Shown here: positions 21 through 57,049 of the stretch, piece after piece | How the letters are laid out: every line of letters starts with the position of its first letter | Numbering within the stretch: the first letter of the stretch is position 1 | Source: a virus | Direction: 5' to 3' (one strand) | Virus record (IMG/VR): IMGVR_UViG_3300036671_000167 | Location: 1 to 62,836 of that record | Length of the DNA: 62,836 bases | Notes under the pieces: model-generated | What the model saw: the letters and a program-made list of their open reading frames with translations, nothing else | The model's database searches: none | What the model was told of the DNA's origin: nothing | Made by a program: the position numbers and the translations under genes

Positions 21-230
21 TTAATTTTCCTTTTCTTCGTTTAGTTGTGAAATCATTTCATCTTTTTCTTCTCTTACATTTTCACGCATTGTGTCCTCAA
101 AATCTAACAAGCCTTGATGATAAGCGATAGGGTCAAGGCGTTTGATAATTTCAGCGGGAGAAAAAACTAAATTGCCAAGCTTGATTTCTCCATAGCAATC
201 ATTAAGTAATTCATCATAGAAATCTTCCAT
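21..230 (-). CDS. Hypothetical acidic 69-aa protein
   Basis: The product is 69 aa and highly charged, with a Glu-rich C-terminal third (residues about 47-69) predicted to be helical. It has no Cys, signal peptide or membrane segment. The ATG at 230 is preceded by AAGGGAAA and overlaps the stop of the preceding zinc peptide gene (TAATG). The stop is followed 2 bases later by the next gene. It belongs to the minus-strand microprotein operon. I do not recognise the family. Confidence 0.7.
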   Translation of the reverse strand: MEDFYDELLNDCYGEIKLGNLVFSPAEIIKRLDPIAYHQGLLDFEDTMRENVREEKDEMISQLNEEKEN

Positions 231-349
231 TATTTTTTTCCCTTTTCTGTAACGCGTACCATACGCTGTGAAAACTTAGGTGTGCAAACCATGCACCAAA
301 CATCTTGAGGGTCTGCTATGTAACCACATTTTAAGCATTGACTAAACAT
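230..349 (-). CDS. 39-aa zinc-ribbon microprotein
   Basis: The 39-aa product has two CxxC knuckles (C5-L-K-C8 and C19-M-V-C22) and a basic C-terminus, the minimal pattern of a zinc ribbon. It overlaps its upstream neighbour at TAATG and its downstream neighbour the same way, so it is probably translated by coupling; its own ribosome binding site is poor. Partner or nucleic-acid target is unknown. Confidence 0.65.
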   Translation of the reverse strand: MFSQCLKCGYIADPQDVWCMVCTPKFSQRMVRVTEKGKK

Positions 350-528
350 TAGTTAGATACCTGCCAACCTGTAGCAAAAGGAAGTCTATCCTCATCATCA
401 AAAATCCAGAATTGCTCAATGTTAATTTCGCAAACTTCACAGAATGTGTATTCTGTATCTTGATAGAATGAGATAGCGCTCTCATTAGGTGTGTGCTCTA
501 AGCACTTATTTATTTTTAGTATTATCAT
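349..528 (-). CDS. 59-aa small protein with CxxH and CxxC pairs
   Basis: The product is 59 aa. A CLEH pair near residue 9 and a CEVC pair near residue 31 could bind one zinc ion; the C-terminal half is acidic and aromatic. It is the first gene after the minus-strand promoter at 569-597. A good ribosome binding site (AAAGAAAGG) precedes the ATG. Its stop overlaps the next start (TAATG). Function is unknown. Confidence 0.65.
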   Translation of the reverse strand: MIILKINKCLEHTPNESAISFYQDTEYTFCEVCEINIEQFWIFDDEDRLPFATGWQVSN

Positions 529-568: not shown

Positions 569-597
569 ACTGTAAGAATACCAGAAGGGTCTGACAT
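569..597 (-). promoter_or_regulatory. Minus-strand sigma70-type promoter with TGTCAG block
   Basis: Read on the minus strand this is ATGTCA, 17 bases, TACAGT. It drives the genes 528 to 1. The block TGTCAGACCC around the -35 is shared with the promoter at 1986-2014. A perfect TGTGA-N6-TCACA palindrome lies about 83 bases upstream of the -10, similar to the arrangement at the other promoter. Confidence 0.55.
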
Positions 598-646: not shown

Positions 647-662
647 TGTGAGATTACTCACA
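647..662. promoter_or_regulatory. CRP/GlxR-type operator, site 1
   Basis: This is a perfect TGTGA-N6-TCACA palindrome (TGTGAGATTACTCACA), the consensus of CRP-family regulators such as mycobacterial Crp and corynebacterial GlxR. Its centre is about 83 bases upstream of the -10 of the minus-strand promoter at 569-597, a class I activator-like position. Binding is inferred from sequence only. Confidence 0.55.
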
Positions 663-732
663 AATTTCAGGGTGTTTTATATCACACTCTTAACGACACG
701 CCCGACCCCGTACCAAGTGTGGGGGAGCTTGC

Positions 733-747
733 CGACTTGTCAAGTCG
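733..747. repeat. 15-bp palindrome, operator or weak terminator
   Basis: CGACTTG-T-CAAGTCG is a perfect 7-bp inverted repeat with a one-base centre. It sits in a locally GC-richer patch just past the 39-aa gene that ends at 761. It could be a protein-binding palindrome, since the loop is too short for an ordinary RNA hairpin. No U-tract follows. Confidence 0.3.
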
Positions 748-760
748 ACACGCCGTAGGG

Positions 761-880
761 CTAGTGTGATTTATCCCACTCTCTAAAATCGGCTACGATC
801 TCGCGCCACATCATACGCCCTAGGTATAGGGCGGGAATAGCAAGGGCTAATTGTACTAGGCTAGTAAGTAGTCTGTTCAT
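761..880 (-). CDS. 39-aa membrane microprotein
   Basis: The product is 39 aa: a hydrophobic helix (about residues 4-21) followed by a charged amphipathic tail rich in R, E, D and W, as in a one-span membrane peptide with a cytoplasmic tail. The start overlaps the stop of the preceding 35-aa peptide (TAATG). The gene ends inside a degenerate copy of the CRP-type block. Function unknown. Confidence 0.5.
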   Translation of the reverse strand: MNRLLTSLVQLALAIPALYLGRMMWREIVADFREWDKSH

Positions 881-987
881 TAGTTGCCCAATTTCTTATT
901 TTGTTTAATTACCCATAGTATTAAAGGCACTAGAAAAATAGCATTCAATAATTGTAAGGTTAGTAGGGCTATGATAAATTCTTTCAT
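880..987 (-). CDS. 35-aa membrane microprotein
   Basis: The product is 35 aa with one strongly hydrophobic segment (about residues 4-26) and a KQNKK tail, typical of a small inner-membrane peptide. The start lies directly after the stop of the upstream 60-aa gene, and the stop overlaps the next start (TAATG). That packing is the main evidence that the two membrane peptides are expressed together. Function unknown. Confidence 0.5.
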   Translation of the reverse strand: MKEFIIALLTLQLLNAIFLVPLILWVIKQNKKLGN

Positions 988-1170
988 TTATTTAACCCCT
1001 AGCATAGTAGCAATTTCATCTAGTTGTTCGTCTGTGAGATGGTCTATCTCAATAGCCTTAGAAAAATTAAAAATGTCATATTCATCACTATCTTTTTCCT
1101 CATCTACCTCATTGAGGTAAGCGTATTGGTCTTTTACATCATCTTGAATAGTGTCCCATACGGTCATCAT
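988..1170 (-). CDS. Hypothetical acidic 60-aa protein
   Basis: The product is 60 aa and strongly acidic (runs of D and E through the middle), with a predicted helical C-terminus. Two ATGs lie in tandem; the first is chosen because AAGGTGA sits 7 bases upstream. The start overlaps the stop of the upstream 55-aa gene (TAATG). Such acidic small phage proteins often mimic DNA or inhibit host enzymes, but nothing here proves that. Confidence 0.65.
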   Translation of the reverse strand: MMTVWDTIQDDVKDQYAYLNEVDEEKDSDEYDIFNFSKAIEIDHLTDEQLDEIATMLGVK

Positions 1171-1337
1171 TAGTTGGTCACCTTTATGTCTGAAATGTTA
1201 GCGTGAAATTTCTTTGTCTTGCCTAAGTCGCTAGCGTTTAGCGAATTTATTAAATGGTCAATCGCTTTAATTTCTGTAGCGACATTGTCTACGCTTAGTA
1301 AGCGTGAGCCTTGCCAAATTGAGTATTTGATAGTCAT
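1170..1337 (-). CDS. 55-aa protein, copy 1 of a tandem duplicate
   Basis: The product is 55 aa, starting MTIKYSIWQGSRLL. It is nearly identical over the first 45 codons to the protein at 1776-1943, at both DNA and protein level, and the C-termini differ. It is probably the first gene after a promoter near 1373. The family is not recognised. The duplication suggests the product is useful in two versions or at higher dose. Confidence 0.65.
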   Translation of the reverse strand: MTIKYSIWQGSRLLSVDNVATEIKAIDHLINSLNASDLGKTKKFHANISDIKVTN

Positions 1338-1372
1338 TATCTTTTCTGCTTTCGTTAGTAGTTATAGTAGGA

Positions 1373-1378
1373 ATTATA
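1373..1378 (-). promoter_or_regulatory. Possible -10 element for genes 1337 to 761
   Basis: The minus strand reads TATAAT here, about 30 bases before the ATG at 1337. No good -35 is present at normal spacing. A TGTCAG block and a CRP-type palindrome (1423-1438, centred about 65 bases upstream of the likely start) suggest an activator-dependent promoter. Confidence 0.35.
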
Positions 1379-1422
1379 GCGCATAGCACTGACATTTATA
1401 GCAACACGCCCTAGGGTTAGGG

Positions 1423-1438
1423 TGTGAGTTGTATCACA
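1423..1438. promoter_or_regulatory. CRP/GlxR-type operator, site 2
   Basis: This is a perfect TGTGA-N6-TCACA palindrome, extended to GTGTGA and TCACAC. It overlaps the last codons and stop of the 52-aa gene (TGA at 1434-1436). It is preceded by the block ACACGCC-N-TAGGG-N-TAG, which also occurs at 748 next to a decayed copy of the site. Its position fits activation of the promoter near 1373. Confidence 0.55.
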
Positions 1439-1592
1439 CTAGACAATTAATACACTCACAACCCATAGAGCGGATAAGATAGGAGAGGATCTCCTTGCGG
1501 GTATAAGTATCTAAACCATAAGATGACTTAATACCGCCGTTATGATAATCGTGAACAATAGTAGAAAATAAAGTTTCTGTAAGTTGATTCAT
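1434..1592 (-). CDS. 52-aa protein with C-terminal CECINC
   Basis: The product is 52 aa, with a polar N-terminal half and a C-terminal CxCxxC cluster that could bind metal or form a disulfide. The ATG at 1592 lies directly after the stop of the 60-aa gene upstream (TAA then ATG). The stop codon falls inside CRP-type site 2, so regulatory and coding sequence overlap. Function unknown. Confidence 0.55.
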   Translation of the reverse strand: MNQLTETLFSTIVHDYHNGGIKSSYGLDTYTRKEILSYLIRSMGCECINCLV

Positions 1593-1775
1593 TTATTGTA
1601 CCTCTGTTACTTTTATATAATAATCTTGCGCATTTGTAAACTCAGTACCGTTTTCTAAATTGTAAGAATTTTCCTTAGTAATCTCATCAGCGATAAAAGT
1701 TCTTGCCTTTTCTTCTGTTGTAAAATAATAATCTGGCTCTGAATAAGCACTGTCTGCTATTGCATAAATAATCAT
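1593..1775 (-). CDS. Hypothetical 60-aa protein
   Basis: The product is 60 aa, beginning MIIYAIADSAYSEPDYYF, rich in Tyr and acidic residues, with alternating beta and alpha tendency and no membrane segment or Cys. It starts directly after the stop of the 55-aa gene upstream and its stop touches the next ATG. It looks like the short host-takeover type proteins seen in early phage operons, but I do not recognise the family. Confidence 0.65.
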   Translation of the reverse strand: MIIYAIADSAYSEPDYYFTTEEKARTFIADEITKENSYNLENGTEFTNAQDYYIKVTEVQ

Positions 1776-1943
1776 TTATTTACCTACCTTAAGAGTCATA
1801 ACGTTAGCGTGAAATTTCTTTATCTTGCCTAAGTCGCTAGCGTTGAGTGATGAGATGAGTGTATCTATTGCCTTAATTTCTGTAGCGACATTATCTACGC
1901 TTAGTAAGCGTGAGCCTTGCCAAATTGAGTATGTGATAGTCAT
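1776..1943 (-). CDS. 55-aa protein, copy 2 of a tandem duplicate
   Basis: The product is 55 aa, starting MTITYSIWQGSRLL, and is the paralogue of the gene at 1170-1337. It is the first gene downstream of the promoter at 1986-2014. The last ten residues diverge from copy 1. Function unknown. Confidence 0.65.
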   Translation of the reverse strand: MTITYSIWQGSRLLSVDNVATEIKAIDTLISSLNASDLGKIKKFHANVMTLKVGK

Positions 1944-1985
1944 TATCTGTTCTTCTTTCTGTTAATCTAAGTTAATTTAACTTAT

Positions 1986-2014
1986 ACTATAATACTAGCA
2001 GGGGGGTCTGACAA
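1986..2014 (-). promoter_or_regulatory. Minus-strand promoter of the microprotein array
   Basis: Read on the minus strand this is TTGTCA, 17 bases, TATAGT, a good sigma70-type promoter. It drives the genes from 1943 downwards. The TGTCAGACCC block overlapping the -35 matches the promoter at 569-597. CRP-type site 3 is centred about 81 bases upstream of the -10. Confidence 0.65.
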
Positions 2015-2061
2015 ATAACAAGTTTAAATTCGGACATTAGGGACAAATTGAAAAATATCTT

Positions 2062-2077
2062 TGTGAAGTACATCACA
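2062..2077. promoter_or_regulatory. CRP/GlxR-type operator, site 3
   Basis: This is a perfect TGTGA-N6-TCACA palindrome in the region between the minus-strand array and the plus-strand zinc-finger gene. Its distance to the minus-strand -10 (about 81 bases) nearly equals that of site 1 to its promoter (about 83 bases). The stretch 1944-2214 holds this site, the promoter at 1986-2014 and the plus-strand promoter at 2180-2208, and no gene that I can see. Confidence 0.55.
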
Positions 2078-11225: not shown

Positions 11226-11681
11226 ATGTCTAGGAAAATGCTGGTTCCCCTAAGACTTTTGGCTTTAATAGAGGACCCAGTTTTTGGACAAGTAGGCGAA
11301 GTTTATATAAATACTATAACTAAAAATTTACGTGTTCATAACGGAACTATTTGGATAGAGCTTACTCCACCAAGCACTGATCCAACACCATTTTATATGC
11401 ACACTCATACTTTTAATGGAGATGTTCACACAATAGATATTCAAAATCAAATTGATTTTAAAAATCTTGAAAACCCTAGCACTCCAGGGCTAGTTCTTCC
11501 AGAGATTATTGGCTACGACGGAGGATTACCCTTAAGCAATCTTAATAACCCCCTCTTTGTAGAAGAAACTTTATTTGATGCAGGGCTTTTTGACGGAATA
11601 GCAGAAACACAAGATACTATACTAGGAGGAGGAGGCTCAGAAGATTTTGATGCCCCTTCCCTTGACGGAGGAAATTCATAA
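11226..11681 (+). CDS. Small fibre-associated protein (151 aa)
   Basis: The 151 aa start with MSRKMLVPLRLLALIEDPVFGQVGEVYINT, the same anchor-like fold as the preceding fibre (GQVGEVYINTITKNLRVHNG). A His-rich patch (YMHTHTFNGDVHTIDIQ) and a Gly/Asp-rich C-terminus follow. Its stop overlaps the next start (TAATG). It may be an adaptor between fibre and tail tip. Exact role unknown. Confidence 0.5.
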   Translation: MSRKMLVPLRLLALIEDPVFGQVGEVYINTITKNLRVHNGTIWIELTPPSTDPTPFYMHTHTFNGDVHTIDIQNQIDFKNLENPSTPGLVLPEIIGYDGGLPLSNLNNPLFVEETLFDAGLFDGIAETQDTILGGGGSEDFDAPSLDGGNS

Positions 11682-13645
11682 TGGCAATTAAAATTCAACT
11701 AAGAAGAGATACCGCAATAAACTGGGTATCAAACAACCCATTACTTTTAAATGGTGAAATTGGAATAGAAACAGACACACTTAGGTTTAAAGTAGGAAAC
11801 GGTTCCCAAAGATGGAATGAAATTACTTCTTATGCTTTAAAGCCTGGTCTTCCAAATGGAGTTGCAAGCTTAGACGACACTGGAAAAGTGCCATCAAGTC
11901 AACTTCCTGATTTGGTTTTAGACAATGAAATTTTAGGATTAATTCAAAATGAAATAAGCCAAATAACAACTTCTTCTATTTCTGAAGGATTAAATTTATA
12001 TTTTACTCAAGAAAGAGTTGTAAACGCTGGCTCTGGAGTTTTTGATATTTCTGGTTCAGCTGCTAATGCAATAGCTGCAGCAGCTACAAATACTGCAAAT
12101 AAAATATCTGATTTAATTAACTCTGCCCCAGAAGCTTTAAATACATTAAGTGAATTATCTGCTGCATTAGAAGAAAATTCTGGATCAATTTCAAATATTA
12201 TAGATTTAATTTCTGAAAAATCTGACATTGTTTATGTAGATCAAGAAATATTAAGTTTATCAAACTTATCCTCTCAAGATGCTACAACTAAAGCAAATGC
12301 TGCTCAAACAGCAGCAATAGCTGCAGCAGCAGCAGACGCTACAACTAAAGCAAATGCTGCTCAAACAGCAGCAATAGCTGCAGCAGCAGCAGATGCTACA
12401 ACTAAATCTTCTTTATCTAAATCAGAATCAATAGCTGAAGCAGCAACAGATGCTACAACTAAAGCAAATGCTGCTCAAACAGCAGCAATAGCTGCAGCAG
12501 CAGCAGACGCTACAACTAAAGCAAATGCTGCTCAAACAGCAGCAATAGCTGCAGCAGCAGAAGATGCTACTTTAAAAAGCAATGAAATTTTAGATCAGTC
12601 AACCTTTTATTCAAATCAAAAATATCTAGACGCTATTGAAGCAGCAAATTTACACGCAGAAGGATTTATAGAAAGTTCCATTGATTTAATTACAACTTCA
12701 GAAATTGAAGAAGGATCTAATCTCTACTTTACAGATTTAAGAGCTAAGGAAGCGGTGGCACCAGAAATTGCAAATGCTATTGCCTCTATTCCTGGCGGAG
12801 GATCAAATATATCTTCTACTACCGATCTTGCCGAAGGAACTAATTTATACTTTACAAATGCTAGAGCAATTTCAGCAACAAATAATGCAAGAACTGCTAT
12901 TTTAATATCTGCAAATAGTACAGTTGATGATCTTCGAGTAGAAATAAATAACTCATTAAATTCCTATGCTCTTATTTCTGATAGAAATGCTGATGGAGGA
13001 TATTCTGGACTAGACTCATCTGGTAAGATTTTAGAGTCCTCAGTTCCAACATCAATAGCTAGATCTGCAGATGTTGCAGCACAAATAGCAAGCCTAGTGG
13101 GTTCTGCCCCAGAAACTTTAAATACATTATCCGAATTAGCAACAGCATTAGAACAAAATTCAGGATCTACTGATGTTTTAACAACGTTAGTTGAAACAAA
13201 ACTTTCTTCTGAATTAGCATCAGAAACATATCTTTCTAAACTAAATGCAGCAGACCAATATGCTACAAAAAGTTTGCTTAGTGAATCATTAATTCCTTAT
13301 TCAACAAAAATTGTTTCTGAAGCATATACTGATTCTGCTATTGCAGGAATTAACAACTCTTTAGACTCTTATGTTTTAGATTCTGATAGAAATCTTAATG
13401 GAGGATTTGCTGGTTTAGATTCATCTGGCAAAATTTTATCTTCTGCTTTGCCAACTATTACAAATTCAATGCTACAAAATAATTTTATAACCGTAAACGG
13501 ATCTGCAATTTCTCTTGGAAGCTCAGTAATTACTGGATATACAAATGGAGTAAGCGGATCAAATGTAAATAAAATAAGTTATGGAACAAATGCTACACCG
13601 CCATCTAGTGGAAATGCTGCTGGCGATATATACATACAATATTAA
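11681..13645 (+). CDS. Long tail fibre with Mtd-like N-terminus and Ala-rich coiled coil
   Basis: The product is 654 aa. Residues 1-50 (QLRRDTAINWVSNNPLLLNG, then FKVGNGSQRWNE) match the RRD/Mtd-type fibre head found also in the 852-aa fibre. Residues about 201-300 consist of 19-residue Ala-rich repeats (57-bp units, 12281-12565), predicted coiled coil. SEGLNLYFTQERV and SNLYFTDLRA motifs recur, as in large phage fibres. The C-terminus is Gly/Ser-rich. It probably trimerises to form a shaft. No reverse transcriptase or variable repeat is seen, so a diversity-generating system is not supported. Confidence 0.7.
   Translation: MAIKIQLRRDTAINWVSNNPLLLNGEIGIETDTLRFKVGNGSQRWNEITSYALKPGLPNGVASLDDTGKVPSSQLPDLVLDNEILGLIQNEISQITTSSISEGLNLYFTQERVVNAGSGVFDISGSAANAIAAAATNTANKISDLINSAPEALNTLSELSAALEENSGSISNIIDLISEKSDIVYVDQEILSLSNLSSQDATTKANAAQTAAIAAAAADATTKANAAQTAAIAAAAADATTKSSLSKSESIAEAATDATTKANAAQTAAIAAAAADATTKANAAQTAAIAAAAEDATLKSNEILDQSTFYSNQKYLDAIEAANLHAEGFIESSIDLITTSEIEEGSNLYFTDLRAKEAVAPEIANAIASIPGGGSNISSTTDLAEGTNLYFTNARAISATNNARTAILISANSTVDDLRVEINNSLNSYALISDRNADGGYSGLDSSGKILESSVPTSIARSADVAAQIASLVGSAPETLNTLSELATALEQNSGSTDVLTTLVETKLSSELASETYLSKLNAADQYATKSLLSESLIPYSTKIVSEAYTDSAIAGINNSLDSYVLDSDRNLNGGFAGLDSSGKILSSALPTITNSMLQNNFITVNGSAISLGSSVITGYTNGVSGSNVNKISYGTNATPPSSGNAAGDIYIQY
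12281..12565 (+). repeat. 57-bp tandem repeats in fibre gene
   Basis: Five 57-bp units encode a 19-residue Ala-rich heptad-like repeat beginning ATTKANAAQTA. The first, second, fourth and fifth are near identical; the third is diverged. A repeat of the same length and similar protein sequence occurs at 17111-17425 in another fibre gene. Confidence 0.85.
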
Positions 13646-16837: not shown

Positions 16838-18244
16838 ATGGCAACAGTAGTAAAAAACTTTAGAATTAAATCAGGTCTGATTGTTGAAGGCACAACAGCC
16901 ACAGTCAATGGTCAAAATATACTTTCAGAAACAGGCGGAGATGCCTATATCCTCAATCTTGTTGGAGGAGCTACTCTTGTAAAGTCTGTTGACTCAGGAG
17001 TATTTGGAGTAGATAGTGTTGGAAATCTTACTATCAATGCTAATACCTTTGATTCCTATGGATCAGCTTCTGCCGCTCAATCTGCTGCAGCAACAGATGC
17101 AACATCAAAGGCCAACGCAGCACAAGCCGCAGCAGAGGCCACAGCCTCAGCAGATGCAACATCAAAGGCCACCGCAGCACAAGCCGCAGCAGAGGCCACA
17201 GCCTCAGCAGATGCAACATCAAAGGCCAACGCAGCACAAGCCGCAGCAGAGGCCACAGCCTTAGCAGATGCAACATCAAAGGCCAACGCAGCACAAGCCG
17301 CAGCAGAGGCCACAGCCTCAGCAGATGCAACATCAAAGGCCAACGCAGCACAAGCCGCAGCAGAGGCCACAGCCTCAGCAGATGCAACATCAAAGGCCAA
17401 CGCAGCACAAGCCGCAGCAGAGGCTTACACAGACTCAGAAGTTGCAGCACTTGTTGATTCAGCACCAGAACTACTTGATACTCTTAATGAGTTAGCAGCA
17501 GCAATTGCAGATAATCCAAATTATGCATCAGATGTTGCTAACTTGGTTGCAACTAAAGCAGATACATCGTATGTTAACTCAGAGATTTCTGATCTTGATA
17601 TAGCCGCACAAGGTTATGCTTCAGCAGCACAGTCTGCAGCAGCATCAGATGCAATATTTAAGGCTAATGCAGCAAAGTCAGAGGCTAAATCTTACACAGA
17701 TGACAAAACATTAGCACTGGGAGATGCTTTTGTCATATATGCAAATGGTACTAAATCAGAAGCAATAGCTACATCGGCAGCGTATGTAGAAAATTTTACT
17801 ACAACAGCAATCAACGCACTTGACACAGACGATATTGAAGAGGGCTCAAACCTTTATTTCACAGATGCTCGTGCACGATATGCTCTTCAAGGCCAATCTC
17901 CAAACTTTGCAACAGTTGATTTAAATTTCATTGCTAAGCAAGTTGCTGCAAGATATTACCCCAGTGAAGCAGGAGTTCATACAGTATATACCTTCGCGGC
18001 GAATGAATATGGTTCAGCAGAATTTCTTGTTAAGGTTTCCCATGGAAGCCATACAGAAATCTCTAAGGTTCTTTTGACTGTAGATGATTCTTATAATATT
18101 GCTTTTACTGAATATGGAATTGTTGGAACCAATGGTTCATTATCAACAGTTTCTGCAGAAATGATTGGTAATAGTTTAAATCTATTAGTAACAGTAAATA
18201 CGGATAGATCAGAAGTTACTGTTGTAGGAACACTACTAATATAA
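16838..18244 (+). CDS. Tail fibre with Ala-rich coiled-coil repeats (468 aa)
   Basis: Residues 1-30 (MATVVKNFRIKSGLIVEGT) are paralogous to the 120-aa protein at 18314. Residues about 85-196 consist of 19-residue repeats of the type ADATSKANAAQAAAEATAS, predicted trimeric coiled coil. A SNLYFTDARARYALQG motif and a C-terminal beta domain follow. The gene is followed by an intrinsic terminator. It is probably a shaft fibre with a receptor-binding tip. Confidence 0.7.
   Translation: MATVVKNFRIKSGLIVEGTTATVNGQNILSETGGDAYILNLVGGATLVKSVDSGVFGVDSVGNLTINANTFDSYGSASAAQSAAATDATSKANAAQAAAEATASADATSKATAAQAAAEATASADATSKANAAQAAAEATALADATSKANAAQAAAEATASADATSKANAAQAAAEATASADATSKANAAQAAAEAYTDSEVAALVDSAPELLDTLNELAAAIADNPNYASDVANLVATKADTSYVNSEISDLDIAAQGYASAAQSAAASDAIFKANAAKSEAKSYTDDKTLALGDAFVIYANGTKSEAIATSAAYVENFTTTAINALDTDDIEEGSNLYFTDARARYALQGQSPNFATVDLNFIAKQVAARYYPSEAGVHTVYTFAANEYGSAEFLVKVSHGSHTEISKVLLTVDDSYNIAFTEYGIVGTNGSLSTVSAEMIGNSLNLLVTVNTDRSEVTVVGTLLI
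17111..17425 (+). repeat. 57-bp tandem repeats (Ala-rich coiled coil)
   Basis: Units start at 17111, 17168, 17225, 17282, 17339 and 17396 (last one partial) and are nearly identical. Each encodes 19 residues. The antisense frame is an open, Leu-rich artefact. Copy number could change by recombination or slippage. Confidence 0.9.
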
Positions 18245-22230: not shown

Positions 22231-22944
22231 ATGACAAATTTAAACAACAATTATTTATTTTCCTCTAAAGAAGAGCTTTTCCCAGGTGTATGGGTATATA
22301 GAGATGTAATTAAAAAAGAAATTGACGTAATCAATAGACTTAATAAAATTGGTGAATCAGCAGCTAAAGAAGGAGAGTCAAGATTTGATTGGATTTTTGG
22401 ATATGTTGGTTATAGTGAAAAAAGGCCATCATACAGAGATTGCGAAGATATTAAAATTGCAGAAATAAAAAATCCAATTAATGAAACACAAAATTTAGTT
22501 TCAAGCCTATGGAATGATTTAAAAATATCTCAAAACATTGCCGTAGAAGATTATTGTTCAAGATACAATATAAAGATGAATTATTGGGAAGTTATGAATT
22601 GCATTCGCTATGGCGAAAAACAACATTTTCAAGAGCATGCTGATCATGGATTTTCTTATAGCGCAACAGTTTCTTTAGTAGCTTATGTTAATGATGATTA
22701 TGAAGGGGGAAACCTTTATTTTCCCAAGATTGGACTAGATATAAAGCCTAAAGCAGGAGACCTTTATATTTTTCCTTCTACTTATTTATTTTCTCATAGA
22801 GCAATGCCAGTAGAATCTGGAACAAAATTTTCTATTGTAACTATGTTAGATTATAACGACCATTCTCATAAACAAGAATTTATTCAAATGAGATCTAAAT
22901 GGCTAGAAGAAGATATTAAATCTGGCAAAAATCAAAATGCATAG
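22231..22944 (+). CDS. 2OG-Fe(II) oxygenase 1 (P4H-like)
   Basis: The product is 237 aa, fold as in prolyl-4-hydroxylase. Iron ligands H136-x-D138 (QEHADHG) and H189 (FSHRAMP), with K199 (SGTKFS) in place of the usual Arg for 2-oxoglutarate. NDDYEGGNLYF is the shared strand. It would hydroxylate a peptide or small molecule using O2 and 2-oxoglutarate. Leaderless first gene of the operon; overlaps the next gene by 8 bases. Confidence 0.85.
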   Translation: MTNLNNNYLFSSKEELFPGVWVYRDVIKKEIDVINRLNKIGESAAKEGESRFDWIFGYVGYSEKRPSYRDCEDIKIAEIKNPINETQNLVSSLWNDLKISQNIAVEDYCSRYNIKMNYWEVMNCIRYGEKQHFQEHADHGFSYSATVSLVAYVNDDYEGGNLYFPKIGLDIKPKAGDLYIFPSTYLFSHRAMPVESGTKFSIVTMLDYNDHSHKQEFIQMRSKWLEEDIKSGKNQNA

Positions 22945-23659
22945 CATAGAAGCTTATGTTATAAGAAAAGAATTAGGAAAAGTTGATTGCTTAACGGCTA
23001 AAAGAGATTGGATGAACGCAACTTTTGATGCTCACGCATATAAATGTTTTCCAGTTAGCTTAACAAATCAGTTAGGATGGGGAATATCTTTTCCAGAAGA
23101 TATATCTTTTATTTGGGATGGAATTTCAGATAGCACTTCAGATCATGTTAAAATTTTATCTGGAGATAAATATGCTTATTCTGGAAGAGCAAATGGAACT
23201 ATAAGCTTTAATACAGGCATAATGTTTAAAACAAATAAAGATATAAGCTTGCTTTCTATGCCAGTTCCAAATTTTTTTATTGACGGAGCAGTCCCATTTA
23301 CAACATTAATAAGCACATCATTTTTTGCAGGGGAGCTACCAGTAGCATGGATGATAACAAAACCAAATGAAGTTATAACAATAAAAGCCAACACTCCAAT
23401 TATTGCAATACTTCCAATAGATTTGGTTTCTATAAACAATTCAGAAATAACCTTAAAACCATTGTCTAGCTTAAAATCACCGCTATTTGATTCTGATGAA
23501 TATTCTAAGGCAATATACAACTTAAATAAAACAGCAAACTGGTCCAATTTTTATAGGGATGCAGTAGATCATTTAAAAAGAAAAATAGGTTCTCATCAAG
23601 TAAAATCAATAAGGCTAAAAATAAATGATGATATAATAAATAAAGGAGAAAATAAATGA
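22937..23659 (+). CDS. DUF6065-like protein in the oxygenase operon
   Basis: The product is 240 aa. The N-terminal pattern RDWMNATFDAHAYKCFPVSL, then NQLGWGISFPEDISFIWDG, resembles DUF6065: R-W-M, C-(F/L)-P-(L/V), N-x-x-GW, W-(D/N)-G. Members are known from phages and bacteria with unknown function. A middle part with PNEVITIKANTPIIAILPI is beta-rich. Both ends overlap oxygenase genes (8 and 4 bases), so it is likely made in step with them, perhaps as a substrate-binding or adaptor partner. The family assignment rests on memory of the pattern. Confidence 0.6.
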   Translation: MHSIEAYVIRKELGKVDCLTAKRDWMNATFDAHAYKCFPVSLTNQLGWGISFPEDISFIWDGISDSTSDHVKILSGDKYAYSGRANGTISFNTGIMFKTNKDISLLSMPVPNFFIDGAVPFTTLISTSFFAGELPVAWMITKPNEVITIKANTPIIAILPIDLVSINNSEITLKPLSSLKSPLFDSDEYSKAIYNLNKTANWSNFYRDAVDHLKRKIGSHQVKSIRLKINDDIINKGENK

Positions 23660-24330
23660 AATTAGAAAATAGCTGGAACGATAATAGACCAAAGTCAATT
23701 ACGCCATCTGGATTTTTTGGAAACTCCCCTGATAATATTGTAGAAATTAGAGATTTTTTAAGTTTAGATGAACGAGAAAGACTGATGAACTTTGCATTAA
23801 ATAATAAGATTTGGGATATAACAGAAACTCATAGAGATGAAGATGGATTAGTTTTATATGATCATAAAGTTTGGGAAGATAGAGTTTGCACTTACAATTC
23901 TTTAATGGCTTCAGACCCAGGCATACTTGATCTTGTGTATAGCATGATAGCAAGATTAAAAATTCAAGTTGATTCATTTTTTAATGTTGATGCAAAAGAA
24001 ACTGGTCCAGCAATTGTTAGGTGGCCAATTGGAACAAGACAAGAGCCTCATGCAGACAAAGAATTTCATTCTGGTCCAGAAAAAGGAAGACCAAATGATT
24101 TTCCGTGGTACGATCTAGCAGGATTATTTTATTTCAATGATGATTATGAAGGTGGAGAGCTATATTTTCCACAACATGGAATTGAATTTCAGCCAGTTGC
24201 TGGAGCAGCATATTTTTTCCCAGGCGATATGAATTATACGCATGGGGTACGCCCAATAAAATCTGGTAATAGATTTACGTCCCCATTTTTTTGGACAATA
24301 AATAAACATACAGGAGAAAAACAACCATGA
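23656..24330 (+). CDS. 2OG-Fe(II) oxygenase 2 (P4H-like)
   Basis: The product is 224 aa. Iron ligands H132-x-D134 (EPHADKE) and H196 (YTHGVRP); R206 (SGNRFTS) binds 2-oxoglutarate. NDDYEGGELYF precedes the catalytic core as in its neighbours. It is the most canonical of the five, close to phage prolyl-4-hydroxylase-like proteins. ATGA overlaps at both ends show coupled translation. Substrate unknown. Confidence 0.87.
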   Translation: MKLENSWNDNRPKSITPSGFFGNSPDNIVEIRDFLSLDERERLMNFALNNKIWDITETHRDEDGLVLYDHKVWEDRVCTYNSLMASDPGILDLVYSMIARLKIQVDSFFNVDAKETGPAIVRWPIGTRQEPHADKEFHSGPEKGRPNDFPWYDLAGLFYFNDDYEGGELYFPQHGIEFQPVAGAAYFFPGDMNYTHGVRPIKSGNRFTSPFFWTINKHTGEKQP

Positions 24331-25145
24331 ATAAATTAGATTACGTAGAGCTTTACCCAAATATTGATGTATATAGAAATGTTTTAAAAGATGTAGATCA
24401 AATGTATAGCGTCATGAATGATTCTGAAAAAAACTCCAAAGGAAAATATTTTTTAAAAACCTGGGATCCTTGGGCACATTTTGGAACCTACAGTCAAAAA
24501 AAAGATAGTAAAGAAATTTTAGCTGATACTTTATCTCATGAAATGTTTATTAAAGAAAAAAATTTTGTTGAAGAAGTTGAAGAAGCTTATAACAAAGTAA
24601 TCTTAGATTATGTACAAAGACATAAAATTAATTTGCCCGATGGCTGGCGATTTAGTGGATGCTCATATTCTAAGTATAACGCTAATATTGATACTTTACT
24701 AAACAACATGACAATGCAATACCACACAGACCACATAACTTCTCAAAAAGATATGCCTGGAGATAAATTTTTTATAACATGTACAATGTATATAAATGAT
24801 GATTACGAAGGTGGAGATATTGAGTTTTACGTAGACAAAAAGCTTATTAATCATAAGCCACAAGCAGGAGACATTTTGGTTTTTCCTTCAACTGAACCTT
24901 ATTTTCATGGAGTAAAAACAATTAACACAAATGAAAAGTTTTTTGTAAGAAATTTTATTATGACTCCCCACAATGGAACAGAGGAATGGCTTGAAAACCA
25001 AAGAAAATTTGGTGCATACAGATGGGCAAAAATGGAGCAGGAAAGAATAGATTACGATGATAAAAGAAACATGATTTATTTTAGTGATGAACAATTACTT
25101 CCTTACGAAGAATATGTAGCTTCTAAGAAAGGCCAAGGAAATTAA
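24327..25145 (+). CDS. 2OG-Fe(II) oxygenase 3
   Basis: The product is 272 aa. Iron ligands H133-x-D135 (QYHTDHI) and H194 (YFHGVKT), with K204 (NEKFFV) at the co-substrate position. NDDYEGGDIEF is present. A C-terminal helical extension (about 60 residues, rich in R, E and K) is unique to this one and could bind substrate or partners. Coupled by ATGA to oxygenase 2; oxygenase 4 begins 1 base after its stop. Confidence 0.83.
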   Translation: MNKLDYVELYPNIDVYRNVLKDVDQMYSVMNDSEKNSKGKYFLKTWDPWAHFGTYSQKKDSKEILADTLSHEMFIKEKNFVEEVEEAYNKVILDYVQRHKINLPDGWRFSGCSYSKYNANIDTLLNNMTMQYHTDHITSQKDMPGDKFFITCTMYINDDYEGGDIEFYVDKKLINHKPQAGDILVFPSTEPYFHGVKTINTNEKFFVRNFIMTPHNGTEEWLENQRKFGAYRWAKMEQERIDYDDKRNMIYFSDEQLLPYEEYVASKKGQGN

Positions 25146-25146
25146 A

Positions 25147-25896
25147 ATGAAAAGAAACATGATTATAACTAAACACAAAGAAGACATTACTGAGTATGAA
25201 AATTTTTTAACACCAGAAGAATGCAAATCAATAATTGATGTTTTGGCAATTAAAATGGAAAAAGAACAGTTAAAGTGGATGCCAATATCATTTTATGAGT
25301 CATATTCATCTGGTACTCCAGATATAGATGACCCAGATACAATTGCATCTAGACTTCCAGGAGATTTTTTTCAATTGCTTAGACAAAGAGTCATTGATGC
25401 AACAGCAGAAATGGCTGGCAAAGATCCAAAACAAATGTCACAAATAAGTTGGCACTCACAAAGATGGGCACCAGGTGCTTTTGCAAATATGCATTCTGAC
25501 AACACCTCTAATGATGGAGTCTCGGGTGCATTTACTAGAAGCAGATATGCAACCTTTCTTTATTTAAACGATGACTTTGAAGACGGGATTTTAAATTTTA
25601 AACATGGATTAAAAATTGTTCCAAAAACTGGAACTTTAGTAACATTTGCTGGAGGATTTCATAATATGCATGAAGTCACTACAGTAAAAAAAGCTATACG
25701 ATACACACTAGGATCATTTTGGGATGATAGAGAAGAAGAAGATTATCCGCAAGAAACAAGAGATAAATGGGCAGAAGAACTTTCAAAAGTAAGAGCTCAT
25801 CAAAAAATAGAAGCTTCAGAATGGGAAGCGGTTAGACAAGAAGGATTAAGAATAACCGCTCAAGGTAAAAAATATCCAGCAGAGGAAGTAGAGTGA
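25147..25896 (+). CDS. 2OG-Fe(II) oxygenase 4
   Basis: The product is 249 aa. Iron ligands H116-x-D118 (MHSDNTS) and H175 (NMHEVTT); R185 (AIRYTLG) for 2-oxoglutarate. The shared strand is altered to NDDFEDGILNF. A charged C-terminal helix follows the core. GTGA overlap with the next gene. The different loop before the core (SRLPGDFFQLL) suggests another substrate than oxygenases 1-3. Confidence 0.84.
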   Translation: MKRNMIITKHKEDITEYENFLTPEECKSIIDVLAIKMEKEQLKWMPISFYESYSSGTPDIDDPDTIASRLPGDFFQLLRQRVIDATAEMAGKDPKQMSQISWHSQRWAPGAFANMHSDNTSNDGVSGAFTRSRYATFLYLNDDFEDGILNFKHGLKIVPKTGTLVTFAGGFHNMHEVTTVKKAIRYTLGSFWDDREEEDYPQETRDKWAEELSKVRAHQKIEASEWEAVRQEGLRITAQGKKYPAEEVE

Positions 25897-26546
25897 TAAA
25901 AAATAATATTGAGTTTAAGCAGTTTGTGATGTTTGACTTACAAATTTTAAATCCTAATATATGGTATTGGGAAAATGCTTTAAGTTTCCCCGATCACCTT
26001 GTTGATTTTATTGAAGAAATCGATTTAAATGAGCTATCTTATAATAAAATTACAAAATGGAAAAATTGGACTGCAAGCGATGACACATCCATAATATATG
26101 GAGCAACAAAAAACATACTATCTTCTGAATTAAAAAGTAGTACGGGATCAGACGCAACAGACAAAAAAACTTTGTATATTAGCAATAGCTTTTTAATGGC
26201 TTTTGAAATGTGTTCAAATAGATATTTGGCTGGACATGGATTAGATGAAAATGATTATAGGCTAGAATTGAATCATGTTCCGATTAAAAAATGGAATCAA
26301 GGGCAATCTATGGGCCCACATTTTGACGGACAAGATGGCAATTCAGACCTTGCATTTTCTTTAGTTTCTTATCCAAACGATAATTATGAAGGAGGAGAAA
26401 TTAATTTTCCAAATCAAAACATTACTATTAAACCAAAAGCTGGGAGCATGATAATGTTTCCATCACAGTTACCTTATCTTCATGAGGTAAAGCCTATTAT
26501 TTCTGGAACTAGATATATGAGTTCGGTTCATGTATATATTAAGTAA
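25893..26546 (+). CDS. 2OG-Fe(II) oxygenase 5
   Basis: The product is 217 aa, starting with GTG inside the previous stop. Iron ligands H143-x-D145 (GPHFDGQ) and H197 (YLHEVKP); R207 (SGTRYMS). NDNYEGGEINF is present. It ends the operon; the collagen-like fibre follows with its own leaderless promoter 21 bases later. Substrate unknown, but the position directly before a Gly-x-Y protein is suggestive. Confidence 0.84.
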   Translation: MIKNNIEFKQFVMFDLQILNPNIWYWENALSFPDHLVDFIEEIDLNELSYNKITKWKNWTASDDTSIIYGATKNILSSELKSSTGSDATDKKTLYISNSFLMAFEMCSNRYLAGHGLDENDYRLELNHVPIKKWNQGQSMGPHFDGQDGNSDLAFSLVSYPNDNYEGGEINFPNQNITIKPKAGSMIMFPSQLPYLHEVKPIISGTRYMSSVHVYIK

Positions 26547-56248: not shown

Positions 56249-57049
56249 ATGTCTAACGATTTAAAATGGATGCTCTCATCTGATCAGCAATTCCCCTATC
56301 AAGATGATAAAATGATTGAGCTTTGGTTTAAGGTTATGAAGTGGTTTAAGCCAGATGTTGTAGACTACCTTGGTGATACAGATGATCAAGCATGTTATAG
56401 TAAATATACTGAAGGGCGTTCTGCAGAATTTATGCAACTTCACAAAGATGATAGTCGTGATTTAATTGTTCCAATGATGCGACATGAAGCAAAAGGCGCA
56501 CGAGATTTTTATGCAAAGACAAGAGAAATGCTTCCACAAGCTCAATTGTTTTCTGCTTTAGGAAATCACGACATCAGAATATTTGATTATATTGACAAGA
56601 AGCTTCCAGATTATGCAAAAGAAGTAACACCAGAAGCTTTGTGGAGTTTAGATTCTTTAGGCTACGATTATATATTTTATGATGCACTTCCAAAGCGTCG
56701 TTTTGGAGACATTCACGTCCACCACGGACTTTCAATTGCAGCAGGTGGATCAGTAAAAAAAGATATGGAAGACATGCAGGTATCTTTAATTAGAGGACAC
56801 TCTCATAGAATTGCTTCTCATATGGTAACTTATGAACTCAGAAACAATGGACAAGGAGAAGTTCTTCGTGGATATGAGATTGGTCACATGTGTGATGAAA
56901 AGGGTCCAGGCATGAAGTATACTCAGCACCATGATTGGCAAAAAGGATTTGCGGTTGCTCATATTGTTAATGACTATCCACACATTCAGATGATTCATGT
57001 TTCCCCAGATTACTCATGCGTAGTAGATGGAAAAGTATTTCAAGTATGA
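56249..57049 (+). CDS. Calcineurin-like metallophosphoesterase
   Basis: The product is 266 aa. Motifs in order: SSDQQFP (D12-x-Q14), YLGDTDD, GNHD, a HHG segment and GHSHR, covering the five blocks of the superfamily. This fits a phosphatase or Mre11/SbcD-like nuclease. It is the first gene of the replication module behind a strong promoter, consistent with DNA processing or repair. The substrate is unknown. Confidence 0.85.
   Translation: MSNDLKWMLSSDQQFPYQDDKMIELWFKVMKWFKPDVVDYLGDTDDQACYSKYTEGRSAEFMQLHKDDSRDLIVPMMRHEAKGARDFYAKTREMLPQAQLFSALGNHDIRIFDYIDKKLPDYAKEVTPEALWSLDSLGYDYIFYDALPKRRFGDIHVHHGLSIAAGGSVKKDMEDMQVSLIRGHSHRIASHMVTYELRNNGQGEVLRGYEIGHMCDEKGPGMKYTQHHDWQKGFAVAHIVNDYPHIQMIHVSPDYSCVVDGKVFQV

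Follow-up and report, generated by a model that had tools for sequence, protein, structure and literature searches.

CRP/GlxR-type palindromes at helically phased distances from a composite promoter in a lineage of probable actinophages

Exact copies of the CRP/GlxR-type palindrome TGTGA-N6-TCACA stand upstream of each of three promoters of a composite type in the 62,836-base virus record analysed here (the window, by which we mean this whole stretch of DNA). The same arrangement recurs in related phages, where the distance between palindrome and promoter varies largely by whole turns of the helix. On the strength of these sequence patterns we consider it probable (roughly 0.6) that a CRP/GlxR-type dimer of the host binds the palindromes as activator sites of an early-promoter regulon.

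A pattern search located the exact palindrome at three positions (Table 1) and nowhere else in the 62.8 kb, precisely where an earlier note on this DNA had placed it, at 647, 1423 and 2062. One hundred dinucleotide shuffles of the window contained a mean of 0.05 perfect palindromes and never three; the earlier estimate was about 0.06 random matches, and the observed number is far above chance. Allowing one mismatch added a single site, at 56873, and the resulting four sites, against 2.2 expected, are no excess. All three perfect palindromes lie in intervals upstream of minus-strand groups of micro-ORFs, and the one at 1423 overlaps the stop codon of the ORF at 1434-1592.

The earlier note had held that lack of conservation in related phages would count against a regulatory role. 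The palindromes proved to be conserved: the 55-aa protein encoded at 1776-1943 has 151 relatives in IMG/VR, and the 80 related phage loci that were the best of these (687 kb, partly redundant) contain 304 perfect copies. On long contigs (up to 115 kb) the palindromes are confined to a single block of small genes, which occupies 105-113 kb of 114 kb in one relative (G010) and extends from 15.5 kb to approximately 23.3 kb of 115 kb in another (G012). A second set of loci was found by the promoter pattern alone, and 72 of its 80 contigs carry relatives of the early genes. Two of the relatives (L043/L044) have tandem perfect sites 23 bp apart; in the window, the weaker site at 671-686 is possibly a second site next to the P1 palindrome. 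The small genes in the early block of G012 (L194-L195) include GP88, DUF932 and an Api92-like (DUF1281_C) protein. Some palindromes on L009, L010 and L011 adjoin TTATCCACA/CTGTGGA stretches that resemble DnaA boxes.

Alignment of 131 non-redundant palindromes revealed a fixed downstream core, AA[A/T]TGTCAG followed after 10 nt by TAtaaT, which is usually preceded by TGn. The order of the composite promoter is palindrome, spacer, [A/T]TGTCAG, 10 nt and extended -10 (TGnTAtaaT); the gap from hexamer to -10 is 11 in 84 of 95 cases, and a purine-rich ribosome-binding stretch, AACGAAAGGA, lies downstream of the -10. A search for -10 elements without an anchor gave no total excess (180 versus 177 in shuffles), yet showed peaks at 10-bp steps; using TGTCAG as the anchor resolved the promoter signal. 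Among 195 non-redundant promoters the palindrome matches at 9-10 of its 10 positions in 137, where shuffles lead one to expect 0.6, and 58 promoters of the same type are without a palindrome of at least 9/10. Exact TGTGA-N6-TCACA occurs in 97 of the 195 and versions with gaps of 3-5 or 7-9 in none, while a reversed-palindrome control never exceeded 8/10. Mismatches in the weaker half-sites fall on T1 and A5 and almost never on the GTG core (48 versus 4). Inverted TGTGA half-sites, a gap of six and a GTG core that is best conserved are the properties of a CRP/GlxR-type operator. Also enriched upstream of the promoters is CGACACGCC, in either orientation (20 and 13 of 137, 0 in shuffles); it lies in the spacer between palindrome and box, for example at L013, L016 and L027.

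Scanned with a weight matrix of the core, the window yields exactly three promoters, P1-P3; all are on the minus strand and each has a perfect palindrome. The shuffled window yields none: P1 scores 36.6, whereas nothing there exceeds 14. These alignment-based cores bear out the earlier placement of each palindrome upstream of a minus-strand promoter. Applied to G012, the matrix finds 16 promoters, all on the same strand within 15.6-26.3 kb, and none in the remaining 104 kb. A near-identical contig (98.8-99.3%) extends the left end of the window and contributes nine further promoters, and a palindrome of 9-10/10 accompanies six of these. The TGTCAG box is 49 nt from the near edge of the palindrome in P1, 27 nt in P2 and 47 nt in P3; the P2 site is two helical turns nearer its promoter than the other two, for which the distances of about 83 and 81 bases to the -10 given previously agree within 1-2 nt with those re-measured here. 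Some promoters have TGTCC repeats (TTTGTCCctaATGTCCgaatt) in the spacer between palindrome and box, as at approximately 2025-2045 of the window (minus strand) and at L012, L013 and L031; such elements are present in 30 of 137 promoters, against 8.6 in shuffles.

Table 1. Palindromes, promoter cores and micro-ORF groups at the left end of the window.
Feature	Position	Strand	Basis
P1: CRP/GlxR-type palindrome, TGTGAGTAATCTCACA on minus strand	647..662	-	exact match; alignment with relatives
P1: weaker CRP-like site (8/10), its centre 24 bp from that of the P1 site	671..686	-	
P1: core, ATGTCAG 597-591, extended -10 TGG-TATTCT (TATTCT 580-575)	575..597	-	alignment of relatives; weight matrix
P1: micro-ORFs 349-528 (59 aa), 230-349 (39 aa, CxxC pairs), 21-230 (69 aa, PHROG 9294)	21..528	-	
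P2: CRP/GlxR-type palindrome, TGTGATACAACTCACA	1423..1438	-	exact match; alignment with relatives
P2: core, ATGTCAG 1395-1389, -10 TATAAT 1378-1373	1373..1395	-	alignment of relatives; weight matrix
P2: micro-ORFs 1170-1337 (55 aa), 988-1170 (60 aa, acidic), 880-987 (35 aa), 761-880 (39 aa, hydrophobic N-terminal stretch)	761..1337	-	
Weaker CRP-like site (8/10) of uncertain significance, at end of ORF 761-880	765..780	-	
P3: CRP/GlxR-type palindrome, TGTGATGTACTTCACA	2062..2077	-	exact match; alignment with relatives
P3: core, TTGTCAG 2014-2008, extended -10 TGC-TAGTAT (TAGTAT 1997-1992)	1992..2014	-	alignment of relatives; weight matrix
P3: micro-ORFs 1776-1943 (55 aa, paralogue of 1170-1337), 1593-1775 (60 aa), 1434-1592 (52 aa)	1434..1943	-	

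The ORFs behind P1 overlap, which suggests that they form an operon. The two 55-aa paralogues are 92-93% alike at the DNA level, and each stands first behind a palindrome promoter. A Pfam search of the window's microproteins returned no significant family, one microprotein matches PHROG families annotated without function, and blastn of the early block against known phages gave no match. A tRNA-Ile gene (anticodon TAT) at 2322-2397 separates this minus-strand block from the plus-strand genes. Elsewhere in the window, 22231-26546 holds a run of related genes which, judged by eye, resemble 2-oxoglutarate/Fe(II) oxygenases, families also present in G012; the tail-region proteins encoded at 11681-13645 and 16838-18244 contain long near-identical repeats (ATTKANAAQTA...; TSKANAAQAAAEATASADA...).

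The spacer between palindrome and box is 17, 27, 37, 47 or 57 (+/-1) nt in 115 of 137 non-redundant promoters. A minority of 16, mostly from one promoter family, have spacers of 31-33 nt and are half a turn out. As a guard against kinship, promoters were grouped by the family of their first protein; over the resulting 64 family-distance combinations the best period is 10.3 bp (R = 0.71), a value reached by none of 5,000 random sets. Orthologous promoters shift by whole turns, a single gene family being represented at 17, 27, 37 and 48 nt, and the pattern-only loci, searched with a free spacer of 15-45 nt, have the same preferred spacings, including the 32-33 class. Whole-turn spacing is typical of activator sites, which have to be turned towards the polymerase. 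In this, and in having the site upstream of the -35 position of a weak promoter, the phage promoters resemble the E. coli class I CRP promoters (lac and its derivatives), whose activity peaks at -61.5, -71.5/-72.5 and -81.5/-82.5 (PMC6301791). If the start sites lie 12 nt from the first base of the -10, the palindrome centres would fall near -54.5, -64.5, -74.5, -84.5 and -94.5, and the register measured from the -10 would exceed the E. coli optimum by 2-3 bp. Because of this offset we do not claim identity with class I; the additional TGTCAG box and the half-turn-shifted minority are further differences.

The TGTCAG box lies 10-11 nt from the -10, where a sigma-70 -35 element cannot be. In T4 middle promoters, a MotA box approximately 12 bp upstream of the -10 likewise stands in for the -35; the likeness concerns geometry only, and the phage promoters described here differ in box sequence, in their spacing of 10-11 and in serving presumed early rather than middle genes. 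The geometry is rare in the Nanopelagicales, yet several species keep it before carD, which encodes a polymerase-binding protein (TGTCAG-N10-TAGAAT in L205, L206 and L208). Because the same geometry is conserved there, the reader of the box is possibly host-encoded.

In its portal and capsid proteins the window shares 56-59% identity with Streptomyces phages such as LukeCage (Stanwilliamsviridae), and close capsid relatives occur on hundreds of uncultured contigs. WhiB is encoded on 12 of 20 related phage contigs, including one with an identical capsid protein (G002); the same search was positive in C. glutamicum only among 14 control genomes. Given the WhiB genes and the kinship to Streptomyces phages, the host is probably an actinobacterium, and GC content and habitat point to a low-GC freshwater group such as the Nanopelagicales. 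The capsid gene had no match in 394 genomes of the actinobacterial class and a genome collection, an empty answer that says little. Eight Nanopelagicales genomes were reached via the acI probe sequence printed in PMC3699509. These streamlined genomes, G020, G021, G022, G024 and G026-G029, each encode a single CRP, with the helix sequence GASRETVNKALADF. We take this helix to match the recognition-helix type of actinobacterial CRP/GlxR. No class III adenylate cyclase (PF00211) was detected in the eight CRP-bearing genomes, although the C. glutamicum control was positive. Perfect palindromes are scarce in the Nanopelagicales: 121 genomes contain about 14, and the reversed control is commoner. 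This would reflect either avoidance of strong sites or a different true regulator or host. A chromosomal regulon of the candidate hosts was also sought, but perfect sites are too scarce to define one.

In LukeCage the leftmost genes are duplicated at the right end (genes 1-26 and 264-289), and this direct terminal repeat is the equivalent of the palindrome block; in BE1 phages such repeats measure approximately 11 kb (PMC5764925). From the shared strand and place, we infer that the genes behind the palindromes are early genes. LukeCage shares the gene-by-gene promoters with a repeated upstream element, but its element is CCGCCCCGG, not a CRP site; this lies for the most part 39-58 nt upstream of the -10, and the LukeCage genome contains zero perfect palindromes. 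Within 1-11.7 kb of LukeCage (L329) a terminator hairpin precedes most early genes and is followed by CCGCCCCGG and a TGTTAGACT-like -10; the distances of CCGCCCCGG (39, 46-50 and 54-58) also look phased.

Searches for the cNMP-binding domain PF00027 and the Crp-type HTH PF13545 found neither in 20 phage records, some of them fragments, and a phage-encoded CRP was set aside on that basis. A phage-encoded regulator unrelated to CRP, with phasing imposed by contact with polymerase or a TGTCAG-bound factor, is the strongest competitor, though in our view unlikely. In its favour, candidate host genomes are almost without a perfect site, most phage proteins match no family, and the array is specific to a lineage, as both its absence from LukeCage and the 72 pattern-found contigs with early-gene relatives indicate. 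The motif nevertheless matches the consensus of a regulator already known from actinobacteria, and WhiB is the sole transcription factor among the families listed (25 of 40) for 60 proteins of G012. Since early genes need factors present at entry, as a host protein is and a newly made phage protein is not, a host protein is favoured.

Host CRP might instead bind and repress or delay the early genes, with infection held back until CRP dissociates. Proteins of this family can repress, and the palindromes of some loci are paired or near other repeats, but repressor sites usually overlap the promoter; here they lie well upstream of the -10 rather than over it, and the whole-turn shifts fit activation. 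We regard repression as improbable. More improbable still is that the palindrome is a feature of RNA or DNA structure (a terminator, or a packaging or restriction site) and no protein operator. It is an inverted repeat, and its bipartite 5-6-5 shape recalls restriction sites; a 5-bp stem with a 6-nt loop, no U-tract and a position upstream of the start site nonetheless led us to dismiss a terminator or RNA structure, and the motif is tied to promoters at fixed phase with invariant bases and no compensatory change. Chance is refuted by the shuffle expectation of 0.05 and by conservation in 80 loci.

Activation by host CRP, the preferred reading, would operate as follows. On entry of the DNA, the RNA polymerase and CRP that the host cell already contains would assemble on the early promoters, and CRP would recruit polymerase where the -35 is poor, in the manner of class I activation. 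TGTCAG would be read by another protein: a subunit of the polymerase, a factor associated with sigma, or a host or phage factor such as WhiB. The proteins of 35-70 aa encoded by the micro-ORF operons would be early takeover proteins. The proposal in the earlier note that a host CRP-family regulator controls early microproteins is retained as the best explanation: the putative binding sites are conserved in relatives and tied to promoters, and no CRP domain was found in 20 phage records. Its suggested link to lysis finds no support, the genes being microproteins without known function in a presumed early block. A link to host nutrition through cAMP is doubtful given the eight candidate hosts with CRP; because no class III cyclase is recognisable in these, CRP may be independent of cAMP and serve as a constitutive "on" signal, not a nutrient sensor.

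Chromosomal CRP/GlxR regulons use mainly imperfect sites; the phage sites are mostly perfect, belong to early promoters and are paired with a TGTCAG box. They share TGTGA-N6-TCACA with the sites of C. glutamicum GlxR and Mycobacterium CRP, and the core of the palindrome agrees with the GlxR consensus TGTGANNTANNTCACA, whose sites are mostly activator sites (PMC4254451). Many copies of a single operator per genome also recall the stoperators of cluster A mycobacteriophages, which are asymmetric and scattered over the genome (PMC9283540); those described here are palindromic and restricted to one block and to early promoters. In the open-access literature we found no prior report of CRP sites in actinophage early promoters.

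Taken further, and only tentatively, an array of a dozen or more composite early promoters, needing host CRP (free of cAMP, the cyclase having been lost) and a TGTCAG factor, might run the whole early programme of a common freshwater actinophage lineage, with an upstream slot exchangeable between phages of different hosts (a CRP site here, CCGCCCCGG in the Streptomyces relatives). If the host-CRP reading is true, the signature of a palindrome at variable distance from TGTCAG-N10-TGnTAtaaT would find early blocks and takeover genes in uncultured actinophages, the orthologous series would constitute natural promoter variants displaying helical phasing, and one could ask what role CRP has in bacteria from which adenylate cyclase seems to have been lost. 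A host regulator would then act as master switch for infection by freshwater phages of a widespread group.
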